The notes beneath the pieces are model-generated. The model was given only the letters and a program-made list of their open reading frames with translations. It had not been told where the DNA came from and searched no databases. Positions 7,429-36,024 of a stretch of 64,000 nt of DNA are shown one piece after another. The stretch's first letter is position 1. Every line of letters begins with the position of its first letter. The DNA comes from an uncultured Lachnospiraceae bacterium. Lineage in GTDB: Bacteria; Bacillota; Clostridia; Lachnospirales; Lachnospiraceae. The position numbers and the translations under genes are program-made. The DNA lies in the NCBI GenBank assembly GCA_902774915.1, contig CACYKH010000008.1, positions 44,416 through 108,415 on the forward strand, in the 5' to 3' direction.

Positions 7429-7475
7429 GAAGCAAAGGCGCTTCGAGCTTACTGGCTCGGAGTGCCTTCTTTTTT
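7429..7475 (+). promoter_or_regulatory. ANTAR-type antiterminator hairpin overlapping a terminator, purF leader
   Basis: Hairpin GAAGC (7429-7433), hexaloop AAAGGC (7434-7439), GCTTC (7440-7444), with A at loop position 1 and G at position 4. From the loop G4 onward the same bases form the 5' arm of a 12-bp terminator, GGCGCTTCGAGC (7437-7448) / GCTCGGAGTGCC (7455-7466), followed by TTCTTTTTT. The two structures exclude each other. Same design as at 9086, 25588, 33742 and 35975. Confidence 0.8.
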
Positions 7476-7530
7476 ATTCCGCGTTTGTAAATCGCATTGC
7501 GAAATATGCATGCAATGAAAGGATTATGCT

Positions 7531-8976
7531 ATGTACAAATCTGTTGTTTCAGACGATAAGTTACATGAGGAGTGTGGGGTCTTTGGAATTTACTCCTTGG
7601 CGGGTGATGATGTAGCGGAGGATATCTATTACGGTCTTGTGGCTCTTCAGCACAGAGGCCAGGAGGCGGCAGGAATTGCAATTTCTGATACGGAAGGACC
7701 TATGGGAAATCTTTCCATCAAGAAAGATATGGGGCTGGTAAGCGAAGTCTTCTCTGAAAAGGACCTTCATGAAATGAAAGGAAACATTGGTGTTGGTCAC
7801 GTTCGTTATTCTACTACCGGCGGAAGCGTGGTTGAAAATGCACAGCCAATTGCAATGAATTATATCAAGGGTACCCTGGCGATTGCTCATAATGGAAACA
7901 TAGTAAATGCGTCCGAGCTGAAACAGCAGCAGATGTATCGCGGTCTTGCTCACTACACAACCTCAGATACAGAAGTTCTTGCCTACGAAATAATAGGAGA
8001 ACGTGTTAAGAACCCTACTATAGAAGATGCTATCAAAAGCACTGCTTCAAAATTAAGAGGTGGTTATGCAGTAGTTGTAAACAGTCCTCGTAAGCTGATC
8101 GGTATGAGGGATCCTTTCGGAATCAAACCTCTTATTCTTGGTCGAAAGATGAACTATTCTATAGATAAGAATATTCTGGAAGAAAATGAGAGTACAGTTA
8201 AAGAGCTTTATACATACATCCTTGCATCAGAAAGTGCAGCTATCACTTCAGTTGGTGGAGAGGTTATTAGAGATATCGAGCCGGGAGAAGTTATTTCTAT
8301 AACCAAGGATGGCTTGGAATCCGACAGAACTCTCTGTCAGGAAAAAAGAGCTCATTGTATTTTTGAGTATATTTATTTTGCCCGTAATGATTCAGTCATG
8401 GACGGAATAGAAATACATGATGCAAGAGTGAATGCTGGTCGTGCCCTTGCAAAGAAAGCAAAGGTAGATGCAGACATAGTAGTGGGTGTTCCAGATTCTG
8501 GTCTTGCAGCAGCAGAAGGTTATGCATTGGAATCCGGTATTCCATTTGCACTTGCCTTCCATAAGAATAGCTATATAGGTCGAAGCTTTATTAAGCCAAC
8601 AGATAAAGAAAGACAGACTGCGGTTCATATGAAACTGAGTGTTATGAAAAGCGTAGTTGAGAATAAAAATATTGTAATCATTGATGACTCCATAGTACGT
8701 GGAACCACAATGAGACAGCTTATAGAGATGCTTCGAGATGCAGGAGCGAAGTCAGTTCATGTAAGGATAAGCTCTCCACCATTCCTTTATCCCTGCTATT
8801 ACGGAACTGATGTTCCAACAGCGAAGCAGCTGATTGCATCTCACCATTCAAGTCAGGAGGTCTGTAGAAGCGTTGGTGCGGATTCGCTGGAGTACCTCAG
8901 TATAGAGGACTTTAAATCTATGGTTGGTGACCTGCCACTTTGTACAGCCTGCTTCACCAATGAATATCCTGTTTAA
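7531..8976 (+). CDS. purF: Amidophosphoribosyltransferase
   Basis: A 481-residue enzyme of the first committed step of purine synthesis: PRPP plus glutamine gives phosphoribosylamine, glutamate and pyrophosphate. The N-terminal glutaminase nucleophile is Cys15 in HEECGVFGIY, implying removal of a 14-residue propeptide as in the Bacillus type. The PRPP-binding loop is VIIDDSIVRGTT. Cysteines suited to a structural 4Fe-4S cluster are present (CIFEYIYF, YPCYYG, LCTACF), as in the oxygen-sensitive Bacillus enzyme. It stands alone, without other pur genes, behind a nitrogen attenuator, which suggests control by glutamine status in addition to purines. Confidence 0.95.
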   Translation: MYKSVVSDDKLHEECGVFGIYSLAGDDVAEDIYYGLVALQHRGQEAAGIAISDTEGPMGNLSIKKDMGLVSEVFSEKDLHEMKGNIGVGHVRYSTTGGSVVENAQPIAMNYIKGTLAIAHNGNIVNASELKQQQMYRGLAHYTTSDTEVLAYEIIGERVKNPTIEDAIKSTASKLRGGYAVVVNSPRKLIGMRDPFGIKPLILGRKMNYSIDKNILEENESTVKELYTYILASESAAITSVGGEVIRDIEPGEVISITKDGLESDRTLCQEKRAHCIFEYIYFARNDSVMDGIEIHDARVNAGRALAKKAKVDADIVVGVPDSGLAAAEGYALESGIPFALAFHKNSYIGRSFIKPTDKERQTAVHMKLSVMKSVVENKNIVIIDDSIVRGTTMRQLIEMLRDAGAKSVHVRISSPPFLYPCYYGTDVPTAKQLIASHHSSQEVCRSVGADSLEYLSIEDFKSMVGDLPLCTACFTNEYPV

Positions 8977-9027
8977 CGTTGTCAGAAAAAAAATAATAGA
9001 AATAATAAAATTAAGTAAAAATAATAC

Positions 9028-9055
9028 TTGACTTTTAAAAATAAAGTCATATACT
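9028..9055 (+). promoter_or_regulatory. gltB promoter
   Basis: TTGACT (9028-9033), a 16-nt spacer and TATACT (9050-9055). Transcription would begin near 9062, about 24 nt before the ANTAR-type hairpin. No terminator is visible between purF and this promoter. Confidence 0.75.
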
Positions 9056-9085
9056 AATAATAGTTTCAAAAAATAAATATCTTGA

Positions 9086-9135
9086 GAAGCAATGGCGCTT
9101 CAGGTTTTAGGACCTGGGGCGCCTTCTGTTTTTTT
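9086..9135 (+). promoter_or_regulatory. ANTAR-type antiterminator hairpin overlapping a terminator, gltB leader
   Basis: Hairpin GAAGC (9086-9090), hexaloop AATGGC (9091-9096), GCTTC (9097-9101). The terminator stem starts at loop position 4: GGCGCTTCAGGT (9094-9105) / ACCTGGGGCGCC (9112-9123), then TTCTGTTTTTTT. The hairpin and the terminator compete for 9094-9101. Confidence 0.82.
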
Positions 9136-9159
9136 CAGATTAGTTTTGGAGGAATCACA

Positions 9160-12100
9160 ATGAATAAGTCAGTTGAAGAAATAAGAAGAAAGGGTTTATA
9201 CGATGCATCTTTTGAGCATGATAACTGTGGTATTGGTGCCATCATTCATTTAGATGGTAAGGCTAGCCATGATCTTGTTGCAGATGCGCTCTCTATAGTT
9301 GAAAACCTTGAGCATAGAGCGGGTAAGGATGCAGAAGGAAAAACCGGTGACGGTGTTGGTATTCTCACTCAGGTGCCTCATAAATTCTTCAAGAAGATTA
9401 TGAAAGAACAGGATGTAGTACTTGGTGATGCCAGGTCCTACGGTGTTGGTATGTTCTTCTTCCCTCAAAATGATCTGGAGAGAAGACAATCTAAAAATAT
9501 GTTCGAAACTATTGTAAGAAAAAGCGGTCTTAAGGTTCTTGGATGGAGAAGAGTTAATATCAGCCCAGACGTTCTTGGTTCTAAAGCAAGAGAATGTATG
9601 CCAGTAATAGAGCAGGCATTTATCCAGAGACCAGAAAGCATTTCACTGAAGAATAAAGATGAGTCTCAGGATCTCGCCTTCGACCGTATGCTCTATATCA
9701 TTCGAAGAGAGTTCGAGCAATGCAGCGTAAGCACATATGTTCCTTCTCTTTCCTGCAGAACTATTGTCTATAAAGGTATGTTCCTGGTTGGGCAGCTGAG
9801 AACCTTCTTCCTGGATCTACAGGATAAGGATTATGAATCAGCTATTGCCATGGTTCATTCCCGTTTCTCAACAAATACAAATCCAAGCTGGAACAGAGCT
9901 CATCCAAACCGTCTTATGGTTCATAATGGTGAGATAAATACTATCAAGGGAAATGCAGACAAGATGCTTGCCCGTGAAGAGACAATGCATACAGATACCT
10001 TCAGCGAAGAGGATATGACTAAGGTTCTTCCGGTTATTTCTTCAAGCGGTTCAGATTCTGCAATGATGGATAATACTCTGGAGTTCCTCATGATGAGTGG
10101 AATGGACCTGCCACTTGCAGCCAGTGTTCTGATTCCTGAACCATGGGCGCATAACGATACTCTGACTCAGGAGGAAAGAGACTTTTATCAATACTATGCA
10201 ACTATGATGGAGCCATGGGACGGCCCTGCATCAATCGTTTTTTCTGACGGAGATGTAATGGGTGCAATCCTTGATAGAAATGGCCTTCGTCCATCACGTT
10301 ATGTCATAACAGATGATCGTCGTCTCATCCTTGCATCTGAGGTTGGTGTTCTTCCTCTTGAGGAAAAGCATATCCTTAAGAAGGATAGACTTTATCCAGG
10401 AAAGATGCTTCTCGTAGATACAAGAGAAGGAAAAATATATTCCGATGATGAGATAAAAGGAAAGTATGCACATCGCGAGCCATATGGTGAGTGGCTGGAT
10501 ATGTCTCTCCTTGAGCTTCATGATATTAAGATTCCTAATGAGAAAGTTCCAGCAGTTTCTGGTGATGAAAGAAAGAAGCTGCAGAAAGCATTTGGCTATA
10601 CATATGAGAATTACCGTGAAGGAATTCTGAATATGGCACTGAACGGTATTGAGCAGATTGGCTCTATGGGCGTTGATACTCCTATAGCAGCACTGTCTCA
10701 TGAATACCAGCCACTGTTCTATTATTTCAAACAGCTCTTCGCACAGGTTACAAATCCACCTATCGATGCAGAACGTGAGAAGATTGTAACTTCAAGAAGT
10801 GTTTATGTTGGAAAGAATGGTAATCTCCTTGAAGAGAAATCTTCAAATTGTCACGTACTTAAAATTCACAATCCAATCCTTTCGGATCTGGATATGCTGA
10901 AGATTAAGAGTCTTTCTGGAGATGGTGATGGAGACCTTAAATCTGCAGTAGTATCTATCCTCTACTACAAGGGTTCTCCTATAAGACATGCATTGGAGCA
11001 TCTCTTTGTAGAGGTTGACCGTACTTACCGTGAGGGCGCAAACATTCTTGTTCTTTCAGATAGAGGAGTGGATGAAAACCATCTGGCTATCCCTTCGCTT
11101 CTTGCAGTAGCAGCAGTTCATAAGCACCTGGTAGAAACAAGAAAGTGCACAGCAATGTCACTTATTCTTGAGTCAGGTGAACCAAGAGAGGTACATCATT
11201 TTGCAACACTTCTTGGCTTTGGTGCATCTGCAGTTAACCCATATCTTGCGCATGCAAGCGTTGGCGAACTTATAGAAGAAGGTCTGGTTGAAAAAGATTA
11301 TTATGCAGCTGTTGAGGATTATGATGAGGCAATCATCAGCGGTATTGTAAAGATTGCATCTAAGATGGGTATCTCGGCTATCAAGTCTTATCAGGGTAGT
11401 AAGATATTCGAGGCAATCGGTATATCAGAAGAGGTAATAGATGAATACTTTACAGGAACAGTAAGCCGTGTTGGCGGAATTACTCTTGATGACATTGGAA
11501 GGAATGTGGAAGCTCAGCATAGCAAGGCTTTTGATCCACTTGGACTTCCAGTTGAGCTTGAACTGGATTCTACAGGAAGACACAAGTTCCGCAGTCAGAA
11601 GGAAAATCACAGATACAATCCTCAGACTATCCATATGCTTCAAATGTCAACTCGTGAGGGTGACTATTCTAAATTTAAACAATATACAGAAATGGTAGAT
11701 AACGAGAAGACAGGTTATCTCAGAAGTCTTATGGAGTTTGAATATCCAGAAACAGGAGTTCCTATTGAGGAAGTGGAAAGTGAGGAATCTATTGTTCAGA
11801 GATTTAAGACTGGTGCAATGTCTTATGGTTCTATTTCCGAGGAGGCACATCAGACTCTTGCAATCGCAATGAACCATCTGCATGGTAAATCCAACAGTGG
11901 AGAAGGTGGAGAGAGTGATGAAAGAATAGCTTCAGCTGGAACAGATAATGATAGAAGCTCTGCTATCAAGCAGGTGGCAAGCGGTAGATTTGGAGTTACA
12001 AGTAAATATCTTGTAAGTGCTCGTGAGATTCAGATAAAGATGGCACAGGGTGCAAAGCCTGGTGAAGGAGGACATCTTCCAGGAAAGAAGGTTTATCCAT

Positions 12101-13770
12101 GGATTGCAAAAACTCGTCATTCAACTCCAGGTGTAAGTCTTATTTCTCCACCACCTCATCATGACATCTATTCAATAGAGGATCTGGCACAGCTTATTTA
12201 TGATCTCAAATGTTCAAATAAGCAGGCAAGAATTTCGGTTAAGCTTGTTTCAGAGGCAGGCGTAGGTACAGTAGCAGCTGGTGTTGCTAAGGCAGGTGCA
12301 GAGGTTATTCTCGTATCTGGTTATGATGGTGGTACTGGTGCGGCTCCACTCAGTTCAATCCACAACGCTGGACTTCCATGGGAAATGGGTCTTGCAGAAA
12401 CACATCAGACCCTGGTTCAGAACGGACTTAGAAATCAGGTTGTTATCGAGACAGATGGAAAGCTTATGAGCGGAAGAGATGTGGCCATCGCTGCAATCCT
12501 TGGTGCTGAGGAATTTGGATTTGCAACGGCTCCATTGGTAACAATGGGCTGTGTAATGATGAGAGTCTGCCAGAGCGATACCTGTCCAATGGGTGTTGCA
12601 ACTCAGAACCCAGAGCTTAGAAAACGTTTCAGAGGTAAGCCGGAATATGTGGAGAACTTTATGCTCTTTATTGCAAGAGAGCTTCGTGAATATATGGCTA
12701 AGCTGGGTGTTAGAACTCTGAGTGAATTGGTTGGTAGAACAGACCTTCTGAAGATGAAGAATTTTGATTCAGAAGATGCAGGCGTTAAAGAGAAGATAGA
12801 TCTAAGTCGTATACTACTTGATATGTCAGGTGTTGCCAGAGAGGAGCAGACATTTAATCCAGAACTTAAGTATGACTTTAAGCTCGAGACAACAAAGGAT
12901 GAAAGTGTTCTCCTGAAGGATAAAGCAATAAAGGCTGTACTTTCTCAGGCTTCAAAAAATCAGAAGGCTGATAACAGCTGCGAGGTAAGTGTAAATGTTT
13001 CAAATACAGACAGAGCATTTGGAACCCTTCTCGGTGCAGAGATAACAAGAAATGTGGCCGAAGGACTGAAAGAGGATACCCTCGTTATCAACGCAACTGG
13101 CGCAGGTGGACAGAGCTTTGGTGCATTTATCCCTCGCGGACTCACTATTAATCTTGTGGGTGACAGTAATGATTATTTCGGAAAGGGACTTTCAGGTGGT
13201 AAGCTGATCGTTCATGCTCCAGAGGATGCTGGTTATAACGCTGAAGAAAATATAATCATCGGTAATGTTGCACTTTATGGTGCTACATCCGGTGAAGCAT
13301 ATATAGCAGGTATGGCAGGAGAAAGATTCTGCATAAGAAACTCAGGCGCAACTGCAGTTGTTGAAGGTGTGGGTGAACATGGATGCGAATATATGACAGG
13401 TGGACGCGCAGTAATCCTGGGACCTACTGGTAAGAACTTTGCTGCTGGTATGAGCGGTGGTATCGCTTATGTACTTGATGTAGATAATACACTTTACAAG
13501 AATCTCAATAAGCAGATGGTAAATATGCAGCAGCTTACAGAGAAGAATGATATGGAAGAACTTAGAAGCATCATTGAAAAGCATGTTGCATTAACAGGTT
13601 CGGAAAAAGGTAAGAAGATTCTTGATGAATTTGAAGAGTATGCACCACACTTTAAGAAGATAATTCCAGAGGGATATGACAAGATGATCAGAACAACTGC
13701 AGAATTGGAAGCAAAAGGTATTTCACATGAACAGGCTCAGATAGAAGCCTTCACTAAACTCGTTGGGTAA
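9160..13770 (+). CDS. gltB: Glutamate synthase, large (alpha) subunit
   Basis: A 1536-residue glutamate synthase: glutamine plus 2-oxoglutarate plus reductant gives two glutamates. The glutaminase nucleophile is Cys23 in DNCGIGAI after a 22-residue propeptide, followed by the class II amidotransferase domain (about 23-430), the central domain, the FMN-binding synthase barrel (GGESDERIAS, KPGEGGHLPG, VSGYDGGTGAAP) and the C-terminal beta-helix (GAGGQSFGAF). The 3Fe-4S cysteines are in CVMMRVCQSDTCPMG (C-x5-C-x4-C). ATG 9160 follows GGAGG at 9148-9152. The frame is open further upstream, through the terminator, but that part is not expected to be translated. Forms an operon with gltD. Confidence 0.96.
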   Translation: MNKSVEEIRRKGLYDASFEHDNCGIGAIIHLDGKASHDLVADALSIVENLEHRAGKDAEGKTGDGVGILTQVPHKFFKKIMKEQDVVLGDARSYGVGMFFFPQNDLERRQSKNMFETIVRKSGLKVLGWRRVNISPDVLGSKARECMPVIEQAFIQRPESISLKNKDESQDLAFDRMLYIIRREFEQCSVSTYVPSLSCRTIVYKGMFLVGQLRTFFLDLQDKDYESAIAMVHSRFSTNTNPSWNRAHPNRLMVHNGEINTIKGNADKMLAREETMHTDTFSEEDMTKVLPVISSSGSDSAMMDNTLEFLMMSGMDLPLAASVLIPEPWAHNDTLTQEERDFYQYYATMMEPWDGPASIVFSDGDVMGAILDRNGLRPSRYVITDDRRLILASEVGVLPLEEKHILKKDRLYPGKMLLVDTREGKIYSDDEIKGKYAHREPYGEWLDMSLLELHDIKIPNEKVPAVSGDERKKLQKAFGYTYENYREGILNMALNGIEQIGSMGVDTPIAALSHEYQPLFYYFKQLFAQVTNPPIDAEREKIVTSRSVYVGKNGNLLEEKSSNCHVLKIHNPILSDLDMLKIKSLSGDGDGDLKSAVVSILYYKGSPIRHALEHLFVEVDRTYREGANILVLSDRGVDENHLAIPSLLAVAAVHKHLVETRKCTAMSLILESGEPREVHHFATLLGFGASAVNPYLAHASVGELIEEGLVEKDYYAAVEDYDEAIISGIVKIASKMGISAIKSYQGSKIFEAIGISEEVIDEYFTGTVSRVGGITLDDIGRNVEAQHSKAFDPLGLPVELELDSTGRHKFRSQKENHRYNPQTIHMLQMSTREGDYSKFKQYTEMVDNEKTGYLRSLMEFEYPETGVPIEEVESEESIVQRFKTGAMSYGSISEEAHQTLAIAMNHLHGKSNSGEGGESDERIASAGTDNDRSSAIKQVASGRFGVTSKYLVSAREIQIKMAQGAKPGEGGHLPGKKVYPWIAKTRHSTPGVSLISPPPHHDIYSIEDLAQLIYDLKCSNKQARISVKLVSEAGVGTVAAGVAKAGAEVILVSGYDGGTGAAPLSSIHNAGLPWEMGLAETHQTLVQNGLRNQVVIETDGKLMSGRDVAIAAILGAEEFGFATAPLVTMGCVMMRVCQSDTCPMGVATQNPELRKRFRGKPEYVENFMLFIARELREYMAKLGVRTLSELVGRTDLLKMKNFDSEDAGVKEKIDLSRILLDMSGVAREEQTFNPELKYDFKLETTKDESVLLKDKAIKAVLSQASKNQKADNSCEVSVNVSNTDRAFGTLLGAEITRNVAEGLKEDTLVINATGAGGQSFGAFIPRGLTINLVGDSNDYFGKGLSGGKLIVHAPEDAGYNAEENIIIGNVALYGATSGEAYIAGMAGERFCIRNSGATAVVEGVGEHGCEYMTGGRAVILGPTGKNFAAGMSGGIAYVLDVDNTLYKNLNKQMVNMQQLTEKNDMEELRSIIEKHVALTGSEKGKKILDEFEEYAPHFKKIIPEGYDKMIRTTAELEAKGISHEQAQIEAFTKLVG

Positions 13771-13808
13771 TGAGGCGCAGCGAAGGATTTTGAAAAGGAG
13801 AAAAGGTA

Positions 13809-15407: not shown

Positions 15408-15414
15408 GTTTTAT

Positions 15415-15448
15415 GTATAGCAGTTAATAAAAAACTGCTATACTTTAT
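15415..15448 (+). terminator. Terminator after gltD
   Basis: Perfect 11-bp stem GTATAGCAGTT (15415-15425) / AACTGCTATAC (15433-15443) with an AATAAAA loop, followed by TTTATAA. The U-tract is short, so termination may be incomplete. Confidence 0.6.
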
Positions 15449-15456
15449 AACGTTAA

Positions 15457-15491
15457 AACCTATTGACATAATAGGTTGATAGTATTAATAT
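15457..15491 (+). promoter_or_regulatory. metY-cysK promoter with a palindrome over the -35 box
   Basis: TTGACA (15463-15468), a 17-nt spacer and TAATAT (15486-15491). A perfect 8-bp inverted repeat, AACCTATT (15457-15464) and AATAGGTT (15470-15477), spaced by 5 nt, covers the -35 box, so a bound repressor would block the promoter. Its size would suit an Rrf2-family regulator such as CymR, the usual cysteine regulator in Firmicutes; that assignment is inference. A short stem GCACT/AGTGC (15494-15515) begins the transcript. Confidence 0.6.
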
Positions 15492-15543
15492 ACGCACTAT
15501 AGCGAGCTAAAGTGCTATGAAATAAATTAGGAGGCAAAACATT

Positions 15544-15669
15544 ATGAGAAGTTATTCACTTAACAAAACATTATATGAAATGTGTTGTTGTCGAATGCAG
15601 AACTCCCGGGCAGTTAATATGGCTGGTATCTTAACATGTCGATGTTTGAGCCTCGAAAATGTAAGATAA
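15544..15669 (+). CDS. Cysteine-rich leader peptide of the metY-cysK attenuator
   Basis: A 41-codon reading frame with an ideal ribosome site, AGGAGG at 15529-15534, 9 nt before ATG. It contains three consecutive Cys codons (14-16, TGT TGT TGT, positions 15583-15591), and a second cysteine pair, CRC, at codons 32-34. The gene downstream makes cysteine or homocysteine, so this is read as a regulatory peptide whose translation senses charged Cys-tRNA. The peptide itself has no membrane or toxin features. Polycysteine leader frames are known before sulfur genes in other bacteria, for example mycobacteria; this one is assigned by its content and position. Confidence 0.75.
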   Translation: MRSYSLNKTLYEMCCCRMQNSRAVNMAGILTCRCLSLENVR

Positions 15670-15720
15670 AGATTAACCAAGCATATTTGCCCGGGAGCTG
15701 AAAAAGGCCTCGGGCTTTTT
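15603..15720 (+). promoter_or_regulatory. Cysteine attenuator: antiterminator/terminator pair
   Basis: A terminator, GCCCGGG (15689-15695) / CTCGGGC (15709-15715) with inner GCT/GGC pairs and TTTTT, precedes metY. Its 5' arm also lies in TGCCCGGGAG (15688-15697), which pairs perfectly over 10 bp with CTCCCGGGCA (15603-15612) inside the leader peptide frame, codons 20-23, starting 12 nt after the Cys triplet. Adjacent GTTAAT/ATTAAC can add to it. A ribosome stalled at the Cys codons would leave the 15603 arm free to pair and prevent termination. Confidence 0.72.
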
Positions 15721-15769
15721 AAAACCAAATTTTACCAAAAGTTATTTATTACAAAGGAGATTTATAAAA

Positions 15770-25587: not shown

Positions 25588-25631
25588 GAGGCAAAGGCGC
25601 TTCGAGTACATAGCTCGAAGTGCCTCTTTTT
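25588..25631 (+). promoter_or_regulatory. ANTAR-type antiterminator hairpin overlapping a terminator, pyrG leader
   Basis: Hairpin GAGGC (25588-25592), hexaloop AAAGGC (25593-25598), GCTTC (25599-25603), with one G-U pair. The terminator begins at loop position 4: GGCGCTTCGAG (25596-25606) / CTCGAAGTGCC (25614-25624), followed by TCTTTTT. It also appears to be the only terminator for transcripts coming from the trp operon. Confidence 0.8.
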
Positions 25632-25660: not shown

Positions 25661-27334
<1,674 letters not shown>

Positions 27335-27414: not shown

Positions 27415-28536
27415 ATGTCGAATTACAACAAAAAATTAATTCTAGAGGATGGTAGTGAGTACCTGGGCTTTGGCTTTGGTGCTGACAAAGAAGCTGTTTG
27501 TGAGATTGTATTTAACACATCCATGGCAGGCTACCAGGAAATCATTTCCGATCCATCCTACACAGATCAGGCCATAGTTATGTCCTACCCGCTTATAGGT
27601 AACTATGGAATCACAGATGAGGACTTCGAGAGTAAGCTGGTTAATCTCGGAGCTCTTGTTGTGCGCGAGGTAAATGAATTCCCATCCAATTTCCGTTTCA
27701 CAAGAACTCTCTCTGAACTCTTAGAGGATTCAGATGTGCCGGGAATTTATGGTGTGGATACGAGAAAGCTTGTGCGCAGCATCAGAGACCACGGTTCAAG
27801 AAAGGTTCTTATAACAGATATTGGAACCAGCCTTGAGGAAGGTCTTAAAAAGCTTGAGGCAACTGAACTGCCTCGAGATCAGGTAGAAAGATGCAGCTGC
27901 AAGAAGAGATGGTATGCAAGAACTTCAAATCCGAAGTTTAACGTTGTGGCAATCGACTGCGGTATGAAGATGAATATCGTAAGAGAATTAAATGCACATG
28001 GATGCAACGTTACTGTAGTGCCTTATAACACTTCTGCAGAAGAGATTAAGAAGATGAATCCGGACGGACTTTTTATTTCAAATGGTCCTGGAGATCCTGA
28101 GGATGTTCCAGAGGTTATTGAAACATTAAAGAATCTGAAGGGTAAGCTCCCTATGTTTGGCATTTGTCTGGGACATCAGCTCATTGCCCTTTCTTATGGT
28201 GCAAAGACCTACAAGCTGAAGTTCGGACATCGTGGTGGAAACCATCCTGTAAAGGACCTGGCAACAGGCAAGATAGAAATAACAAGTCAGAACCACAGCT
28301 ATGCTGTTGATGACAAAACAGTTGAAGGTACAGGACTTAAGGTTTCTCACATCAATCTTCTGGATAATACAGTTGAGGGACTTTGTAATTACGATATAGA
28401 AAATGGTGGTGGAGATGCTCCAAGAGTATTCTCAGTACAGTACCACCCAGAGAGTGCACCTGGCCCACAGGATAGTACTTATCTTTTCGATAGATTTATA
28501 GAAAATATGGAAGTTAATAGAAATACATCAAAATAA
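27415..28536 (+). CDS. carA: Carbamoyl phosphate synthase, small (glutaminase) subunit
   Basis: A 373-residue subunit that hydrolyses glutamine and channels ammonia to CarB. N-terminal LILEDGSEYLGFGFGA and FNTSMAGYQEIISDPSYTDQ are CarA signatures; the glutaminase nucleophile is in FGICLGHQLIALSYGA; VQYHPESAPGPQD contains the His-Glu pair. A weak promoter (TTGTGG-17-TAAAAT at about 27345-27373) could exist in the 80-nt gap after pyrG. The gap to carB is 20 nt. Confidence 0.95.
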   Translation: MSNYNKKLILEDGSEYLGFGFGADKEAVCEIVFNTSMAGYQEIISDPSYTDQAIVMSYPLIGNYGITDEDFESKLVNLGALVVREVNEFPSNFRFTRTLSELLEDSDVPGIYGVDTRKLVRSIRDHGSRKVLITDIGTSLEEGLKKLEATELPRDQVERCSCKKRWYARTSNPKFNVVAIDCGMKMNIVRELNAHGCNVTVVPYNTSAEEIKKMNPDGLFISNGPGDPEDVPEVIETLKNLKGKLPMFGICLGHQLIALSYGAKTYKLKFGHRGGNHPVKDLATGKIEITSQNHSYAVDDKTVEGTGLKVSHINLLDNTVEGLCNYDIENGGGDAPRVFSVQYHPESAPGPQDSTYLFDRFIENMEVNRNTSK

Positions 28537-28556
28537 TTTTTGAAGGAATATAGAAA

Positions 28557-31500
28557 ATGCCTAAGAGAACAGATATACACAAAATATTAGTTATCGGCTC
28601 TGGTCCTATCGTCATCGGTCAGGCAGCAGAGTTCGACTACGCAGGAACCCAGGCCTGCCTTGCCTTAAAAGAGGAAGGCTACGAGGTTGTTCTTGCAAAC
28701 TCAAATCCTGCGACCATCATGACAGATACCATGATCGCCGATAAGGTTTATATGGAGCCACTTACTCTTGAATACATGGCCCGCATTTGCCGTTATGAAA
28801 GGCCAGATGCCATTGTACCGGGAATTGGTGGACAGACTGGACTTAACCTCGCAATGCAGCTGAATGATAAGGGAGTTCTTAAGGAGTGTGAGATTGAACT
28901 TCTGGGAACAGATGCTGCCAGCATAAGATGTGCCGAGGATAGAGAAGAGTTTAAAGAGCTCTGCGAAAAGCTGGGTGAACCAGTAGTTCCATCAGAGATA
29001 ACATATTCCGTTGAAGAGGGACTTAAGGCAGCCGAGGAGATTGGCTATCCGGTTATCCTGAGGCCTGCATTTACCCTTGGTGGAACGGGTGGTGGATTTG
29101 CAGATAACCCTGAAGAGATGGCAGAGATGATGAAGAATGCTCTGGCACTTTCTCCAGTTCATCAGGTTCTGGTTGAGAAGAGTATTAAGGGTTATAAAGA
29201 GATTGAATACGAAGTAATGCGAGATGCAAACGATACAGCTCTCGTTGTCTGTAACATGGAGAACCTGGACCCTGTTGGTATCCACACCGGTGACTCAGTG
29301 GTTGTGGCACCAAGCCAGACTCTCACAAACAAGGAATATCATATGCTCCGTGACAGCGCCCTGAAGATCATCAGAGCTCTTGGAGTTGAGGGTGGTTGTA
29401 ACTGCCAGTTCGCTCTGGATCCGGAGTCATTTGATTACTATGTTATCGAGGTTAATCCTCGTGTGTCCAGATCATCAGCCCTTGCATCAAAGGCCAGTGG
29501 CTATCCTATAGCCCGTGTTTCTGCAAAGATTGCTGTAGGTATGAACCTGGATGAGATTAAGCTTGCTAATACACCTGCATGCTTTGAGCCAACACTGGAC
29601 TATGTAGTAACAAAGATGCCAAGATTCCCATTCGATAAGTTCACTCTTGCGTCAAATGTACTCTCAACCCAGATGAAGGCTACAGGTGAGACCATGAGTA
29701 TCGGACGTACTGCAGAGGAGAGTCTGCTTAAGGCTATCAGATCTCTGGAGGACGGAAAGAACCACATCCATTTAGAGAAATTCGATGTTAAGAGTCTCTC
29801 TGAAAAGACAGATGCAGAAGAGGCTAAGGAGGAAGCTATTGAGAAGCTTCTGAAATATGTTGAAGAAGGAACTGATGACAGAATTTATGCATTGTCACAG
29901 CTGATATGGCTTGGGGTTGACCTTCAGGTTATTTACAATAAGACAAAGATAGATATGTTCTTCCTGGATAAGATCAAGAACATAGTTGAGTATGAGAGAC
30001 GCATTGAAAAGATTGCGGAAAATATAGATGGCAAGGATATAGAAGGCATTAAGAATGCATTTGACAGAGAGACTCTCTATGATGCTAAGAAGATGGGCTT
30101 CTCTGATTCTTACATAGCAGAGCTGGTGGGCTGCACTGAGGATGACATTTGGCAGCTTCGCAAGGAGTATAACATTAAGCCGGTTTACAAGATGATCGAT
30201 ACCTGTGCCAGCGAGTTTGACAGCTATGTGCCATATTTCTATTCAACTTATGAGGATGAAAATGAGTCTGTAGTTTCTGACAATAAGAAGGTCATTGTTC
30301 TTGGTTCGGGTCCTATCCGAATTGGACAGGGCGTGGAGTTCGATTATTCCACAGTTCACGCGGTAAGAACAATTCACGAGATGGGATACGAGGCTATTGT
30401 TATAAATAACAACCCTGAGACGGTTTCGACGGATTATACAACCGCGGATAAGCTGTATTTCGAGCCTCTTACTGTTGAGGATATTATGAATATCATTGAT
30501 CTGGAACAGCCGGAGGGTGTGATCACATCTCTCGGTGGACAGACAGCTGTTAACCTGGCAGAGCCTCTTGAGAAGAGAGGGGTTAAGATAATCGGTACAA
30601 GCTGCGAGGCCATTTTCAGAGCTGAAGACAGGGACGCATTCGAAGGAGTTATTGAATCTCTTGGTATCCCTCATCCAAAGGGAGTTGCTGTTACAGATAT
30701 TGAAAGTGGCGTTCAGGCTGCAGAGAGAATAGGCTATCCTGTTCTGGTTCGTCCTAGCTTCGTGCTGGGTGGACGTGCCATGGAGATCGTGGCAAACGAG
30801 GAGATGCTCCGTCATTACCTCAAGACCGCCGTTGAAGTGGATGAGGATAGACCTGTACTTGTAGATAAATATATTGTTGGTAAGGAAGTTGAGATAGATG
30901 CTATCTGCGACGGAAAGGAAGTTTTCCTGCCTGGTATCATGGAGCTGGTTGAGAGAACAGGTGTTCACTCTGGAGACAGTACCAGCGTTTATCCACCTTA
31001 CTCAATTTCTGAAAAGGTAAAAGAGACTATAGCGGAGTACTCCAGCAAGCTGGGACTCGGTATTGGAATAATAGGTCTCTTCAACATACAGTTCATCGTT
31101 GATAAGGAAGATAATGTTTATATCATCGAGGTTAACCCTCGTGGTTCGCGTAGTGTTCCATTCCTGTCAAAGTCAACAGGTTACAGCCTGGTCGATATAG
31201 CAACCAAGGTTATGCTGGGACACAGTCTTGCTGAGCAGGGCTACACTGGAACTGCACCAGAAGGTGGACTTAAAGATGCTGCTAAACCAAAATGGTATGT
31301 TAAAACGCCTGCATTTTCATTTGCAAAGCTGAATGGTATGGACCCATATCTTTCACCAGAGATGAAATCTACAGGTGAAGCTATTGGTTATGATAAGAGT
31401 CTGAAGAGGGCATTTTACAAAGCTCTGCAGGCCAGTGGAATCAAGATGAAGGAATACGGAACTGTAATGGTTACCCTTGCTGACGAGGATAAGGAAGAGG

Positions 31501-31832
31501 CACTTCCACTTGTCAGAAGATTCTATGAGCTTGGTTTCAATATCGAGGCGACTGTGGGAACTGGTGAGTTCCTGAAGGAGCGCGGTATAAGAACACGTAT
31601 CAGAGGAAAGCTTAGTGATGGTAGCGACGAGGTGCTTCGTTCTATCGAGGCAGGCTACGTAAGCTACATCATCAATACAAGAGCAATTCTCTCAGGAATA
31701 CACTATCAGGATGGAGCGGAGATAAGACGCTGCGCCATTATGAACGGAGTAACTATATTCACATCACTCGATACAGTGCGTATCCTGCTTGATGTCCTGG
31801 AAGACATCACACCACGCATATCGACGATTTAG
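28557..31832 (+). CDS. carB: Carbamoyl phosphate synthase, large subunit
   Basis: A 1091-residue synthetase feeding arginine and pyrimidine synthesis. Two homologous ATP-grasp halves are seen, starting [22 protein letters not shown] and [20 protein letters not shown], with [17 protein letters not shown] and [16 protein letters not shown] as metal/ATP motifs. The C-terminal MGS-like allosteric domain (about 950-1070; [18 protein letters not shown]) suggests control by nucleotides or ornithine. It lies 34 nt before glnA. Confidence 0.96.
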
Positions 31833-31866
31833 AATAAGTATTCACTTATTGTGAAAGGAAAGAAGT

Positions 31867-33033
31867 ATGAATTATACAGAGTCAGAAATCATGGAGTATA
31901 TTGAGGAGGAAGATGCCAAGTTTATAAGACTGGCCTTCAGAGATGCATTTGGCGTGCAGAAAAATATTTCTATCATGCCTAGTGAGGTGCATAAGGCATT
32001 TGATAAGGGTATTCCAATCAATGCCAAAGCCATAAGAGGCTTTGAAGGTTGCGGGGAGGCTGTCCTCTATCTGAAACCGGATCCAGCAACACTTTCGGTT
32101 CTGCCATGGAGACCTGATTCTGGCAGAGTTCTTAGGATGTTCTGTGATGTATGCAAGGGCGATGGAAAGCCTTTTGAGGCAGATACCCGCAACATACTTA
32201 AGGATGCGGTAAAAGCCGCTGAGGAGGCTGGAATTGAATTTAAATTTGGTTCTGAGCTGGAATTCTATCTTTTCAAGACTGACGATGAGGCGAATCCTAC
32301 AAAGATACCTTACGATGAGGCAGGCTATCTGGATATTGCTCCGCTTGATCGTGGAGAAAACATCCGCCGTGAAATCTGCCTTACCATAGAGGAGATGGGC
32401 CTTACTCCAGAGCGCTCTCATCATGAGAGAGGTCCTGGACAGAATGAGATTGACTTCCATTATGGCAAGCCACTTAAGGCTGCAGACCAGGTTACAACCT
32501 TCAAGATGGTTGTAAATACTGTGGCAGATAGAAATGGCCTCTATGCTGATTTTTCACCTCTTCCAATTGCGGACAAACCAGGAAATGGCTATCACATCAA
32601 CATCTACGCTAAGAACAGAGATGGCGAGGATGTTGTTAAATATGCGGCAGCAGGCATTTTGGATAAGATCAAGGATATAACTATTTTCCTTAATCCTACA
32701 GATGCTTCCTACAACAGATTTGGTAACGGAACAGCACCTACTAAGGTGAATTGGTCCAGAGAAGGTGGCTCTGAGCTTATGTACATAAACTCAGCTGGCA
32801 CCAAGGTTGAACTGCGCAGTCCGGATGCACTCAGCAATCCGTATCTTGTGCATGCCCTGCTTATCTATGCAGGACTTTATGGAATTGAGAATAAGCTGGA
32901 GCTCCCACAGGAAATGGATGAGAGCAGCGTGCTTCTTCCAAAGTCTCGTAGAGAGGCTATGAAGAACGCTAAGAACAGCGACTTTATCAAGGAATTACTT
33001 CCAGAAAGTATAATCGACAAGTATATTTCGTAA
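31867..33033 (+). CDS. glnA: Glutamine synthetase, type I, short form
   Basis: A 388-residue type I glutamine synthetase: glutamate plus ammonia plus ATP gives glutamine. Visible motifs: KFGSELEFYLF (metal Glu), ERGPGQNEIDFHY, NGYHINIYAKN (catalytic region), NPTDASYNRF and KVELRSPDALSNPYL. It is some 50 residues shorter than usual GlnA (about 440), from a compact N-terminus and shortened loops, so feedback control may differ. No adenylylation tyrosine context was identified. It follows carB and is followed after 31 nt by the ANTAR regulator; glnA next to an ANTAR gene (nitR) is known in Clostridium saccharobutylicum. Confidence 0.9.
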   Translation: MNYTESEIMEYIEEEDAKFIRLAFRDAFGVQKNISIMPSEVHKAFDKGIPINAKAIRGFEGCGEAVLYLKPDPATLSVLPWRPDSGRVLRMFCDVCKGDGKPFEADTRNILKDAVKAAEEAGIEFKFGSELEFYLFKTDDEANPTKIPYDEAGYLDIAPLDRGENIRREICLTIEEMGLTPERSHHERGPGQNEIDFHYGKPLKAADQVTTFKMVVNTVADRNGLYADFSPLPIADKPGNGYHINIYAKNRDGEDVVKYAAAGILDKIKDITIFLNPTDASYNRFGNGTAPTKVNWSREGGSELMYINSAGTKVELRSPDALSNPYLVHALLIYAGLYGIENKLELPQEMDESSVLLPKSRREAMKNAKNSDFIKELLPESIIDKYIS

Positions 33034-33064
33034 CCCCTGATCTGTTATTTAAGAGCATTTTGTG

Positions 33065-33640
33065 ATGGAAAAAAAGAGTACCTCAAGATATTCGATACTC
33101 ATTGTATCGAATTCCGAACAATTCAATATGCTTGCTCAGAAATCCATGCCAAGTGGCAGGTTCGATGTGATTGAGAAAAGGAAAAGCGCCTCCGCTGCGA
33201 GACGTGAAATTTTAGTGCGTGAATATGATATCGTGCTCATAAATGCGCCTCTCTCAGATGGCTTTGGTGTGGACTTTGTAATGGATGTTGTGGATAGACA
33301 CAGCTCCGGAATAATCATGGTTGTTCCTGTTGAGGTTTATCCTGATATGGCAGCCAGACTCACGGATTATGGCGTGATCGTTGTTCCAAAGCCTCTTCAG
33401 AAGGGAATTCTGGACAGAAGCCTGAGACTTCTGATTGCATTTGGCGAGAGACTCAGAAAATCTCAGAAGAAGGTCAGGACTCTGGAAGAAAAAATGAACG
33501 AGCTTAAAATTATCAGCAGGGCAAAAATTGTGCTTGTACAAAGAGGTATGAGCGAAGAGGAAGCCCACGAATATATTATCCGGGAAGCCATGAATAATGG
33601 GCTTACGAAGAGGGAAGTTGCGGAAGATATTCTGGACTAA
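33065..33640 (+). CDS. ANTAR-domain antitermination regulator (NitR-like)
   Basis: A 191-residue protein with a receiver-like domain (about 9-122), a helical linker (125-147) and a C-terminal ANTAR RNA-binding domain (about 135-190; SRAKIVLVQRGMSEEEAHEYIIREAMNNG). ANTAR proteins bind hexaloop hairpins and prevent termination. The receiver is degenerate: Asn60 (YDIVLINAPLSDG) replaces the phosphorylated Asp, and the acidic pair near the N-terminus is SNSE; Lys109 (VVPKPL) is kept. So phosphorylation is unlikely and another signal, perhaps a protein partner, is expected. The start is ATG 33065 (a GTG sits just before); the ribosome site is weak. Likely regulator of the five hexaloop terminators in this window. 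Confidence 0.88.
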   Translation: MEKKSTSRYSILIVSNSEQFNMLAQKSMPSGRFDVIEKRKSASAARREILVREYDIVLINAPLSDGFGVDFVMDVVDRHSSGIIMVVPVEVYPDMAARLTDYGVIVVPKPLQKGILDRSLRLLIAFGERLRKSQKKVRTLEEKMNELKIISRAKIVLVQRGMSEEEAHEYIIREAMNNGLTKREVAEDILD

Positions 33641-33686
33641 AAACAGTCCTTAAAAATATTTCAAAAAATTTTTTTGAAAAAAGGTA

Positions 33687-33715
33687 TTGACAAATCCGAT
33701 TTAACGGAGTAAAGT
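33687..33715 (+). promoter_or_regulatory. glnN promoter
   Basis: TTGACA (33687-33692), a 17-nt spacer and TAAAGT (33710-33715), preceded by an A/T-rich palindrome (33660-33681) that could act as an upstream element. Transcription would begin near 33722, about 20 nt before the ANTAR-type hairpin. No terminator separates it from the ANTAR gene. Confidence 0.65.
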
Positions 33716-33741
33716 GTGAAACCATAAAAGAACAAGTGCGA

Positions 33742-33791
33742 AAGACAATGGCGTCTTAGAGAATAATTCTCTGAGGCGCCTTTTCTGTTTT
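33742..33791 (+). promoter_or_regulatory. ANTAR-type antiterminator hairpin overlapping a terminator, glnN leader
   Basis: Hairpin AAGAC (33742-33746), hexaloop AATGGC (33747-33752), GTCTT (33753-33757). The stem has changed on both sides relative to purF and gltB (A-U for G-C), while the loop is unchanged. Terminator: GGCGTCTTAGAG (33750-33761) / CTCTGAGGCGCC (33769-33780), 12 bp, then TTTTCTGTTTT. Confidence 0.83.
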
Positions 33792-33847
33792 CATACGAAT
33801 CGCTTAGCGATTTATGAACTCGCACGAAATGAAAAAGGAGAAACGAT

Positions 33848-35947
33848 ATGGAAAATCAAAATGTACCAGAGCTTTTCGGATCACTCGTGTTTGATGACAG
33901 AGTAATGAGAGCAAGACTTTCAGACGATGTATATGCATCACTCAAGAAAACCATCGACGAAAATGTTCGACTGGATGAACAGGTTGCAGATGCAGTTGCT
34001 GAGGAAATGAAAAATTGGGCTATTGAGAATGGAGCGACACATTTTACTCACTGGTTCCAACCTCTTACAGGAGTTACTGCAGAGAAGCATGATAGTTTCA
34101 TATCACCTTCTCCAGACGGCGGAGTTCTGATGGAGTTCTCCGGTAAGGAACTTATCAAAGGTGAGCCTGATGCTTCATCCTTCCCATCAGGAGGACTGAG
34201 AGCAACATTTGAAGCAAGAGGTTATACAGCATGGGACCCAACTTCATTTGCATTTATCAAGGACCACACACTTTGCATTCCAACAGCTTTCTGTTCATAC
34301 TCAGGTGAAGCACTTGATAAGAAGACACCACTTCTCAGATCAATGCAAGCTATTAACAGACAAGCAAAGAGAATCTTGAAGCTCTTCGGAACAGAAGCTA
34401 ATTACGTTAGAACAAGCGTAGGACCTGAGCAGGAATACTTCCTGGTTGATCAAGAAGTATTTAACAAGCGTCCTGACTTAATCTATACAGGTAGAACACT
34501 CTTCGGTGCAATGCCACCAAGAGGACAGGAAATGGATGACCATTACTTCGGAGTTATCAAGCCTCGTGTAAATGAGTTTATGGAGGACTTAAATAAAGAA
34601 CTCTGGAAGCTTGGAATCCTTGCTAAGACAGAACATAACGAAGTTGCTCCTGCACAGCATGAGCTGGCACCAATCTATTCCACAACAAATGTGGCAACAG
34701 ATTCCAACCAGTTAACAATGGAGATTATGAAGAAGGTTGCATCTCGCCACGGTATGGTTTGTCTCTTACATGAGAAGCCGTTCGCAGGAGTTAACGGATC
34801 AGGTAAGCATAACAACTGGTCCATCGGAACAGATACAGGAATCAACCTACTGTCACCTGGAAAGACACCATATGAAAATGCACAGTTCCTGCTTTTCCTT
34901 TGTGCAGTAATCCAGGCGGTAGATGATTATCAGGATCTTCTGAGACTGTCAGTTGCAACTGCTGGAAACGACCACAGACTTGGAGCTAACGAAGCACCAC
35001 CTGCTATCATTTCAGTATTCCTTGGTGATGAGCTTTCAGCTATCCTTAAGGCTATTAAAGAAGATAAGCCTTATGAGGGAACAGAAGATGTGGTTATGAA
35101 ACTTGGAGTTCATTCAATCCCAAGCTTCAGCAGAGATACAACTGATAGAAATAGAACTTCACCATTTGCATTTACAGGTAATAAGTTTGAGTTCAGATCT
35201 CTTGGTTCTTCAAACAGTATTGCATGCTGTAACATCATGCTGAATGCATCTGTTGCAGAAAGCTTGAAGCAATATGCAGACGAACTCGAAGGTGCAGCTG
35301 ATTTCGAAACTGCACTTCATGACCTTATCAAGAGAGTTATCACAGATCATCAGAGAATTCTCTTCGATGGAAATGGATATGGAGATGAGTGGATTAAGGA
35401 AGCAACTGAAGTAAGGGGTCTTTCAAATCTTAAGACCACTGCAGATGCAATGCCACATCTCCTTGATGAGAAAAATAAGAAGATGCTTATGGAGCATAAG
35501 GTATTTACTGAGGCAGAGCTCCAGTCAAGATGCGAGATCATGCTTGAGAACTATGTAAAGACAGTAAATATCGAAGGTAATACAATGGTTGATATGGTTC
35601 GTAAGAACTACCTTCCAGCAATTGAGAGATACCTCTTCAGACTTGCTGAGACAACATCTCTTATGAAGTCAGTAAGTGCAAATGTTAAATGCAATTATGA
35701 AGTATCAACTATGGAAAGACTTTCAGAACTTACAGATCACATTTTAGATTCTGTAAAGGCTCTTGAGGATGATCTTGATAAGTTCAAGTCATTAGATGAT
35801 GTATTCGAGTCATCAGCATTTGTAAGAGACGAAATGCTTCCTTCAATGGAAACACTTCGTGGTTATGTAGATGAAGCTGAAATGCTTACATCTCAGAATG
35901 ATTGGCCATTCCCAAGCTATGGACAGTTATTATTCAGTGTTAAATAA
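33848..35947 (+). CDS. glnN: Glutamine synthetase, type III
   Basis: A 699-residue GSIII, the long dodecameric glutamine synthetase found in Bacteroides, some clostridia and cyanobacteria. Motifs: [70 protein letters not shown] and [21 protein letters not shown]. An AAAAAGGAG site precedes the ATG. Second route to glutamine besides glnA, here under the ANTAR attenuator and co-directional with the ammonium transporter. A very similar paralogue begins at 63345. Confidence 0.96.
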
Positions 35948-35974
35948 TTTGGGAATCAAATTAAATAATTTATA

Positions 35975-36024
35975 AAGGCAAAGGCGTCTTGGTTTTTAAA
36001 TAAAAAAAACTGAGGCGCCTTTTT
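35975..36024 (+). promoter_or_regulatory. ANTAR-type antiterminator hairpin overlapping a terminator, between glnN and amt
   Basis: Hairpin AAGGC (35975-35979), hexaloop AAAGGC (35980-35985), GTCTT (35986-35990), one G-U pair. The terminator is the longest of the five: a 15-bp stem (35983-35997 / 36005-36019) and TTTTT. No promoter fits in the 27 nt after glnN, so this element controls read-through from glnN into amt. Confidence 0.8.

Follow-up and report, generated by a model that had tools for sequence, protein, structure and literature searches.

The window, a stretch of 64 kb analysed as a whole, carries the genes purF, gltB, pyrG, glnN and amt, each preceded by a similar short leader, together with a gene for an ANTAR protein. 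This arrangement raises the question whether the leaders are switched by that protein and how a signal would reach it. The genes of the cluster are as follows:

7531..8976, + strand: purF, amidophosphoribosyltransferase type (GATase_6 and Pribosyltran)
9160..13770, + strand: gltB, glutamate synthase large subunit
25685..27334, + strand: pyrG, CTP synthase
27415..28536, + strand: carA, 3′ of pyrG
28557..31832, + strand: carB
31867..33033, + strand: gene for a GlnA (glutamine synthetase I, GSI)-like protein of 388 aa, proposed sensor partner
33065..33640, + strand: putative ANTAR antiterminator with a pseudo-receiver, sole ANTAR gene found in the genome
33848..35947, + strand: glnN, type III glutamine synthetase (GSIII)
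36073..37839, + strand: amt-PII fusion (Ammonium_transp and P-II)

Directly upstream of the ANTAR gene lies the degenerate GlnA-like gene and downstream of it glnN. The pyrG operon probably extends through carAB and the GlnA-like gene as far as the ANTAR gene.

All five leaders contain a 5-bp hairpin with an A1/G4 hexaloop, whose 3′ strand lies inside an intrinsic terminator, as had been described in the sequence-only reading:

7429..7444, + strand: purF leader, putative hexaloop antiterminator hairpin, GAAGC[AAAGGC]GCTTC
7436..7467, + strand: purF leader, terminator stem reusing the 3′ strand of the hairpin, followed by a T tract
9086..9101, + strand: gltB leader, hexaloop hairpin, GAAGC[AATGGC]GCTTC
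9094..9123, + strand: gltB leader, terminator overlapping the hairpin
25588..25603, + strand: pyrG leader, hexaloop hairpin, GAGGC[AAAGGC]GCTTC
25595..25625, + strand: pyrG leader, terminator overlapping the hairpin
33742..33757, + strand: glnN leader, hexaloop hairpin, AAGAC[AATGGC]GTCTT
33750..33780, + strand: glnN leader, terminator overlapping the hairpin
35975..35990, + strand: amt leader, hexaloop hairpin, AAGGC[AAAGGC]GTCTT
35982..36020, + strand: amt leader, terminator overlapping the hairpin

The loop bases A1 and G4 are present in each of the five. The overlap had been placed at the same base throughout, which holds to within one base but not exactly, since loop base 3 is the first base of the terminator arm in the purF, pyrG and amt leaders, as against loop base 4 in those of gltB and glnN. 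A sixth leader of the same kind is located elsewhere in the genome, outside the window. The plain terminators L008, L012 and L015 of this genome likewise start with AAGGC.

A descriptor was used which fixes only the geometry and the bases A1 and G4, i.e., a 5-bp stem, a terminator stem no shorter than 10 bp, a T-rich tail and the location of the entire 3′ strand of the hairpin within the terminator stem. On both strands of the 64 kb it matched the five leaders and one weak site on the − strand at 51079. When applied to 20 dinucleotide shuffles, it gave one match in four and none in 16, an AAWGGC loop occurring in none of them; the leaders exceed this chance expectation. As a plain sequence, AAWGGC shows no enrichment in the window (76 observed, 69.3 expected). 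Each full leader folds as the terminator, with −20.5 to −25.1 kcal/mol and z-scores of −5.0 to −6.6. The isolated hairpins have folding energies of −2.6 to −4.9 kcal/mol, and those of purF, pyrG and amt alone are matched in folding by 22–23 of 200 shuffles.

Covariation across relatives, on which the sequence-only reading had staked its ANTAR interpretation, was analyzed in 35 leaders, six of this genome and 29 from relatives, the latter found with a model (R1) that encodes the terminator and the sequence and leaves out the hairpin pairing. Both mutually exclusive helices covary. The hairpin is paired in 97.1% of the cells, and double-sided changes affect 21 cells vs. 6.1 in shuffles; the terminator is paired in 99.0%, with 74 double-sided changes vs. 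19.7 (n = 35 in both cases). By coarser measures, namely double-change pairs (3) and further pair types (6), the hairpin does not rise above shuffles in these 35 leaders.

The leaders also track the ANTAR gene, as the same reading would require. A second model, R2, matched in 93 of 131 family genomes with an ANTAR gene but in only one of 19 without (Fisher p 3.7e-8, relatedness ignored), and this lone match is a plain terminator, so that no true leader was found in the 19 ANTAR-less family genomes. At E 0.01 and with stricter filters applied, an R2 match is missing in 38 of the 131. In the order sample the rule was broken once: two of 64 ANTAR-less genomes gave a model match, of which G166 has a plain terminator, whereas G336 (81% complete) has a genuine amt leader and no ANTAR match. 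Among 90 fetched loci with an R2 match, 82 show an A1/G4 hexaloop hairpin in which four or all of the five pairs form and which overlaps a terminator; 29 of the 90 contain leaders used in training R2, and outside this set the overlap is found in 55 of 61. The genes located 3′ of the 82 leaders are, by similarity, GSIII (27), amt (10), purF (9), gltB (8), pyrG (4), PII (2) and 22 others.

The ANTAR gene at 33065-33640 encodes a C-terminal ANTAR domain (PF03861, E 3.1e-14, 52.9 bits at a cut-off of 27.3) and, described before as the only one visible, is the sole PF03861 match in the whole genome (67 contigs, 98.9% complete). The AF2 model of the protein (mean pLDDT 86.7) comprises a receiver, a long helix and a helical ANTAR domain; its best Foldseek matches are 6ww6, 1s8n, 1sd5, 6wsh and 1qo0, the nearest structures being EutV-RNA, Rv1626, EutV and AmiR. 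Of the residues with which EutV contacts RNA, the position of M172 is a methionine in all 82 ANTAR proteins compared and that of Y164 is H, Y or F in 81 (H 68, Y 7, F 6, E 1), while the positions of R142, K143 and K147 are variable. A phospho-acceptor aspartate is present in none of the 82, the protein of the window having asparagine instead. Due to this pseudo-receiver, the signal most likely arrives via a partner and not by phosphorylation.

Antitermination of nitrogen genes by a single ANTAR protein, with one hexaloop per leader, is thus a reading of these sequences which we hold with good confidence, and two other views of the leaders were weighed against it. That they are constitutive attenuators or a small-molecule riboswitch with an incidental hexaloop would fit the strong terminators and the AAGGC start shared with the plain terminators of the genome. 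This is very improbable, as the hairpin covaries independently and the presence of leaders follows the ANTAR gene; in addition, the window leaders, with a length of about 40 nt, lack an aptamer-sized domain, and no Rfam family scores above its own threshold in the window. Somewhat less remote but still improbable is a classical dual-hexaloop system whose weak or degenerate first hairpin was missed. The ANTAR leaders in print have two hairpins, P1 and P2 (PMC3369931, PMC8164766, PMC8934654), and because EutV requires two hexaloops (PMC8934654), a single one may fall short kinetically. In 91 leaders, however, upstream A1/G4 hexaloops are no commoner than in shuffles: stems of at least 3 bp occur in 8 (8.2 ± 3.2 in shuffles), of 4 bp in 2 (2.7) and of 5 bp in none (1.0). 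In 51 of the 62 leaders with a recognisable promoter, no more than 15 nt separate the end of the predicted −10 box from the hairpin (median 10), so that fewer than 15 transcribed bases precede the hairpin and the space for P1 is missing there. The hexaloop is mostly predicted at the extreme 5′ end of the transcript; an A1/G4 hexaloop of at least 3 bp lies inside 5 of the 62 predicted 5′ parts, which speaks for a second hairpin in these few cases. So does the pyrG leader of the window, where a weak 3-bp A/U hairpin with A1/G4, AAT[ATTGTT]ATT, is found 4 nt upstream of the main one. The five leaders of the window have longer 5′ parts, 21–49 nt from the predicted −10 box. Additional A1/G4 hexaloops, located at or before the predicted promoter, are found 28 nt upstream in glnN (stem of 4 bp) and, in amt, 63 nt (5 bp) and 46 nt (4 bp) upstream. 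Within 80 nt no such hexaloop, even at 3 bp, precedes the hairpin in purF, gltB or the sixth leader.

According to the single-hexaloop reading, the nascent leader RNA would first form the short A1/G4 hairpin. Unless something keeps this hairpin in place, the far more stable terminator would take over its 3′ strand and part of its loop, and transcription would stop before the gene. An ANTAR dimer holding the hairpin would block the terminator and allow the expression of glnN, amt, gltB, purF, the pyrG operon and the sixth operon, presumably when nitrogen is scarce. Unlike in the published ANTAR antiterminators, one hexaloop would be enough, and in most relatives only a few bases separate the hairpin from the predicted start of transcription. 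The GlnA-like protein, which we regard as the best candidate for the sensor partner at about even chances, would retain or release the ANTAR protein depending on ligands such as glutamine or related ones, in the manner of AmiC and AmiR.

In 80 of the 82 loci fetched, its gene immediately precedes that of the ANTAR protein. The protein of the window has Asn, Thr and Gly at the positions of D50, E327 and R339, which we take, in numbering and roles, to be catalytic residues of glutamine synthetase I, and retains all six metal-ligand positions (E129, E131, E212, E220, H269 and E357). Among 81 ANTAR-linked GlnA-like genes, the E327 position is non-acidic in 28, including that of the window, whereas all eight GSI located away from ANTAR genes retain D50, E327 and R339. 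On a quick tree the non-acidic E327 position takes at least 11 changes and E131 and R321 take none, which suggests that catalytic residues were lost repeatedly. D50, R62, E327 and R339 are all intact in 23 of the 81 partners, hence a catalytically dead enzyme is not a requirement. The six metal ligands are intact in 17 of the 28 partners without E327 and in 49 of the 53 with it; as at least one is lost in 11 of the former vs. 4 of the latter, ligand binding may be eroding as well.

These losses would also be expected if the proposed role of the ANTAR protein is right but sensing is done by GSIII or by the PII domain of the Amt fusion, and the GlnA-like protein is an old enzyme decaying after takeover by GSIII. 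The Amt-PII fusion is encoded in the same cluster. With GSIII present in 148 of 150 genomes of the family, GSI could be dispensable. We consider this alternative less likely than not. The degenerate gene is kept beside the ANTAR gene and is missing together with it: a Gln-synt_N match is lacking in 15 of the 19 genomes without ANTAR, three have a distant GSI, and in one a GSI is truncated at the end of a contig. Moreover, the GlnA-like copies of the window and of L022 are 82% identical (pN 0.119, pS 0.726) vs. 64% for the ANTAR proteins, and decay sits poorly with at least 11 changes at E327 against none at E131 and R321. That a glutamine synthetase without catalysis, binding its ligands without turnover, serves as the glutamine sensor of a single-hexaloop ANTAR antiterminator, demoted repeatedly where GSIII can take over synthesis, is proposed tentatively, at somewhat less than even chances. 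A sensor role of the GlnA-like partner would make it a pseudoenzyme derived from glutamine synthetase, in which catalysis was lost several times separately, so that these losses could be compared.

A neighbourhood of glnA and nitR is presumably also found in Clostridium saccharobutylicum. In this species NitR was described as an ANTAR-family regulator of the GS/GOGAT genes (Stutz et al., 2007; PMC6316151), and the ammonia-assimilation cluster of C. thermocellum contains an ANTAR gene (PMC4676874). Both resemble the present system in an ANTAR-family GS/GOGAT regulator and in induction by nitrogen limitation, but as given in these two sources the accounts mention neither leader anatomy nor a degenerate GlnA partner (PMC6316151, PMC4676874). 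ANTAR nitrogen regulons are already in print: they were predicted in several phyla, with leaders upstream of P-II, ammonium transporter and glutamate/glutamine/arginine synthase genes, and with P2 overlapping the terminator (Ramesh et al., 2012; PMC3369931). Their RNA is by definition a dual hairpin, in contrast to the single one here, and purine, CTP and asparagine synthesis genes or a GlnA-like partner do not figure in the passages considered here (PMC3369931). The single hexaloop and the GlnA-like partner go further; since the ANTAR search models in the papers considered here demand two hexaloops, they would miss this class. It would make the question why two are needed directly testable, offers a minimal protein-controlled terminator switch of roughly 40 nt, and provides a concrete nitrogen-control circuit for what is presumably a large group of gut anaerobes.

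EutV/EutW share with it the coiled-coil ANTAR output, the A1/G4 hexaloop, the strand common to hairpin and terminator, and the control of several leaders by one protein, but EutV needs two hexaloops and is activated by phosphorylation, whereas here one hexaloop is present and the phospho-acceptor is absent (PMC3369931, PMC8934654). In AmiC-AmiR and NasS-NasT sensing is done by a partner protein, and AmiR has a pseudo-receiver too (PMC3369936, PMC3795266). The present family shows the AmiR/AmiC-like combination of pseudo-receiver (82 of 82) and neighbouring candidate partner gene (80 of 82), although this partner would be GlnA-like instead of an amide- or nitrate-binding protein and the interaction is putative. 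A GlnA protein as nitrogen-dependent partner of a regulator is known from glutamine synthetase and TnrA in Bacillus, where, unlike in this ANTAR system, the synthetase is active and the regulator binds DNA (PMC6316151).

Five leaders with the anatomy described in the sequence-only reading are present upstream of purF, gltB, pyrG, glnN (encoding a type III glutamine synthetase, GSIII), and amt:

Window G000:C8:44416-108415 (G000 being the genome of the uncultured Lachnospiraceae bacterium): five leaders, each a 5-bp hairpin with an A1/G4 hexaloop whose 3′ strand is reused by an intrinsic terminator
Window 31867-33033: GSI-like (GlnA-like) protein, 388 aa
Window 33065-33640: ANTAR gene

A descriptor fixing only the geometry, A1, and G4 was scanned over both strands of the 64 kb and matched the five leaders and one weak extra site. 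Four of 20 shuffles gave one match each, and none of these had an AAWGGC loop. Counts of the bare AAWGGC hexanucleotide were rejected as a signal, as it is not enriched. The isolated hairpin has a folding energy of -2.6 to -4.9 kcal/mol, while the full leader folds as a terminator (-20.5 to -25.1 kcal/mol). Since the predicted terminator is far stabler, the hairpin would be a transient form in need of help, as an antiterminator should be. No Rfam family reached the gathering threshold in the window, and a lax threshold at six loci gave four matches, all far below gathering.

Using R1, a search model with terminator and sequence but without hairpin pairing, the five leaders were recovered and a sixth good one was identified in the same genome (G000:C31:680-729, E 4.8e-7); 16 nt after it, a large ORF encoding a PPDK_N domain begins. 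The remaining R1 matches in this genome are plain terminators without the 5′ stem, e.g., L008. Upstream of a third type III GS gene (window 63205-64000, cut by the contig end), a decayed-looking leader at 63205-63260 retains AAAGGC but has lost stem and T tract, and was not counted. A Fic-family protein is encoded just 5′ of the purF leader (window 6581-7372), and a single reading frame at 36073-37839 joins the ammonium transporter to a PII domain.

Covariation was analyzed in 35 leaders, the six of the own genome and 29 from relatives found via R1, which encodes no hairpin pairing, yet does include sequence information from the five leaders used to train it. In the hairpin, 97.1% of the cells are paired and 21 are double-changed (6.1 in shuffles), although two coarser covariation measures were not above shuffles for the hairpin in these leaders. 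In the terminator, 99.0% are paired, with 74 double-changed cells against 19.7 in shuffles. Shifting the partner by 1–3 columns lowers the pairing of both helices to about 26–56%. Pairing, double changes, and the drop on sliding together argue that both mutually exclusive helices, which have a strand in common, are conserved, so that the covariation across relatives named as a check of the regulon was found.

As R1 matched many plain terminators (matches in 113 of 150 genomes), it was rejected as sole leader finder; a second model, R2, was built from the 35 leaders and fetched matches were checked with the structural descriptor. The E-values of these model searches are rough, being based on short calibrations. 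In the family sample (150 genomes, 150 genera as coded), which probably represents Lachnospiraceae or a family near it, an ANTAR gene was found in 131 genomes, nearly always as a single copy; the own genome has one PF03861 gene. At E 0.01, R2 matched 94 genomes, 93 of them ANTAR-bearing (Fisher p 3.7e-8, relatedness ignored). Twelve of the 19 ANTAR-less genomes have an R2 match up to E 1 (best 0.0048), and inspection of all 17 of these matches revealed no hexaloop leader, where a leader invisible to R2 would escape. In the order sample (196 genomes, a few common to both samples), R2 matched 66 genomes, 64 of 132 with and two of 64 without ANTAR. One of these two matches (G166) was rejected as a plain terminator; the other, in the 81% complete genome G336, is a real amt leader. 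The expected absence of leaders from ANTAR-less genomes thus applies to the family sample, but not entirely to the order sample.

In the family sample, 90 loci were examined among the R2 matches listed (30 first and 60 further). A leader was found in 82, with all five pairs in 58 and four pairs in the rest; the other eight, without a descriptor-passing leader, are near variants by eye. Excluding the 29 loci which hold R2 training leaders, 55 of 61 have a leader. By similarity to the window proteins, the genes 3′ of the 82 leaders encode GSIII (27), Amt (10), PurF (9), GltB (8), PyrG (4), and PII (2). The other 22 were assigned by eye, and Pfam confirmed the assignment for five representatives: nine of asparagine-synthase type, three carA, two ABC ATPases, two aminotransferases, one RelA/SpoT-domain protein, one PPDK-like protein, and four others. 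The theme of the predicted regulon is ammonium uptake and the production and use of glutamine. PPDK_N-domain proteins behind a leader occur in the own genome (L007:684-2229, Pfam) and in another genus (G112; L289, by resemblance). RelA/SpoT-domain proteins were found behind a leader in two genomes, G103 (L275, Pfam) and G332 (L372, by resemblance), and it is possible that such members tie the nitrogen state to (p)ppGpp. Tandem leaders, each with its own terminator, precede a single gene at L052:1425-1570 (glutamate-dehydrogenase-like), L022:4969-5108 (amt), L029 (amt), and L377 (ABC transporter), the genes being assigned by eye.

ANTAR-target RNA is defined as a dual hairpin in two reports (PMC3369931, PMC8164766). 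For EutV, the discussion of PMC8934654 describes both hairpins as obligatory in vivo, with one dimer bound per hexaloop, and names the role of single-hexaloop sites as a remaining question. In contrast to the EutV system, the leaders described here have one hexaloop. Sigma-70-type promoters, scored by a scheme of our own, were recognisable in 62 of 91 distinct leaders; the end of the -10 box lies a median of 10 nt from the hairpin (at most 15 nt in 51 of 62), so close that the transcript would start within a few bases of it. A1/G4 hexaloops on 3 bp were found in the 45 nt upstream of 8 of 91 leaders, compared with 8.2 in shuffles, and inside the predicted 5′ part in 5 of 62. The window leaders have longer predicted 5′ parts (21–49 nt). 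No A1/G4 hairpin lies within 80 nt upstream of the purF and gltB leaders, a weak 3-bp one is located 4 nt upstream of that of pyrG, and for glnN and amt such hairpins coincide with the predicted promoters or precede them.

The window protein is an ANTAR family member by profile and by fold (AF2 model). In the window and 81 further loci, the receiver is degenerate, with Asp at the phospho-acceptor column in 0 of 82. The position of the EutV methionine which plugs the hexaloop is Met in 82 of 82, and where EutV has the tyrosine stacking on G4, 81 of 82 proteins carry His, Tyr, or Phe; the positions of EutV R142, K143, and K147 are not conserved.

ANTAR loci were fetched from two named relatives (uncultured Clostridiales bacterium and uncultured Eubacterium sp.) and from 80 of the 131 family genomes with ANTAR; of these 82 loci, 80 have a GSI-like frame immediately upstream of the ANTAR gene and in the same orientation. 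The exceptions are a locus with 34 bases of contig upstream and L114, which has a 585-codon ANTAR frame and lacks a GSI. Outside the family but within the order, this neighbor is present at 18 of 20 fetched ANTAR loci (exceptions L248 and L249), and 24 more GSI genes there adjoin an ANTAR frame. In the 19 ANTAR-less genomes, a Gln-synt_N match is absent from 15, the GSI is cut by the contig end in one, and three have a GSI scoring low against the window protein (78–85 bits). One of eight unlinked GSI (L324) adjoins a 464-codon frame matching a receiver-plus-ANTAR profile (E 6.8e-7), which was taken for a receiver match because the genome has no PF03861 match. Three genes of the own genome match PF00120: the GSI-like gene and two that encode type III GS; the third type III GS was detected with PF12437.

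In the set of 81 linked proteins (that of the window and 80 others), the catalytic positions are frequently changed: a non-acidic residue replaces E327 in 28, and substitutions occur at D50 in 18, at R339 in 28, and at R62 in 48. E131, G265, and R321 are kept in all 81, E220 in 78, E212 in 77, E129 in 75, H269 in 74, and E357 in 72. A quick tree built from 99 sequences requires at least 11 changes for E327 (non-acidic), 9 for D50, and 17 for R339, compared with none for E131 and R321, 2 for E220, 3 each for E212 and E129, 5 for H269, and 6 for E357. D50, E327, and R339 are kept in all eight GSI not adjoining ANTAR, a small control. R62 and N264 are poor loss markers, as both vary in such GSI too. 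As a marker, R339 ranks below E327, since in family f22 the linked GSI have lost R339 although D50 and E327 are still in place. The C-terminus after R359 is shorter with E327 loss (medians 92 vs. 109 residues, p 4.8e-12, relatedness ignored).

The repeated loss of catalytic residues and the lasting tie to an ANTAR protein without phospho-acceptor suggest that the GlnA-like protein may be its sensing partner. The fuller reading, a catalytically lost, repeatedly demoted GlnA-like protein acting as the glutamine sensor of a single-hexaloop antiterminator, is tentative and held at somewhat below even chances. A rather less probable explanation is that PII of Amt-PII, or GSIII, is the sensor and the GlnA-like gene encodes an enzyme decaying beside ANTAR. 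The metal ligands bear on both: they seem better kept than the catalytic residues, but also erode where E327 is lost, all six being kept in 17 of 28 such proteins vs. 49 of 53 with E327. This slightly lowered our confidence in the glutamine sensor and slightly raised that in the decaying enzyme. The window protein shares 82% identity with its L022 relative at pN 0.119 and pS 0.726, so it is kept by selection. In eight loci (L087, L130, L159, L243, L244, L245, L250, and L251), the flap glutamate is replaced by Lys/Arg together with a one-residue deletion, and this group may be in a functional state of its own and not simply decaying at random. Two family genomes lack GSIII; G020 is without ANTAR, and the partner in G083 (L143) keeps E327.

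In the proposed circuit, read-through would occur when nitrogen is short, a direction taken from NitR as summarised in PMC6316151. The pyrG leader is followed by pyrG-carA-carB-GlnA-like-ANTAR with gaps of 80, 20, 34, and 28 nt, and in relatives, e.g., L086, L102, and L136, the GlnA-like gene itself is preceded by a leader; this arrangement makes positive autoregulation of the ANTAR gene likely.

The proposed ANTAR antitermination regulon for nitrogen holds by sequence evidence. Such regulons were predicted in 2012 (PMC3369931). New with respect to the literature consulted are the single hexaloop, the phospho-acceptor missing throughout, and the probable GlnA-like sensor. In searches of open PMC papers, no report was recognised that deals with nitrogen leaders of the single-hexaloop kind or with the pairing of ANTAR and a degenerate GlnA. 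Some members may be listed in the supplementary tables of Ramesh 2012.

Elsewhere in the window, a short ORF of 41 codons (15544-15669) contains three Cys codons in a row. It is followed by a CCCGGGCAG/CCCGGGAG hairpin, a T-rich element, and the O-acetylhomoserine sulfhydrylase gene (15770-17050), and looks like a cysteine-responsive leader-peptide attenuator.
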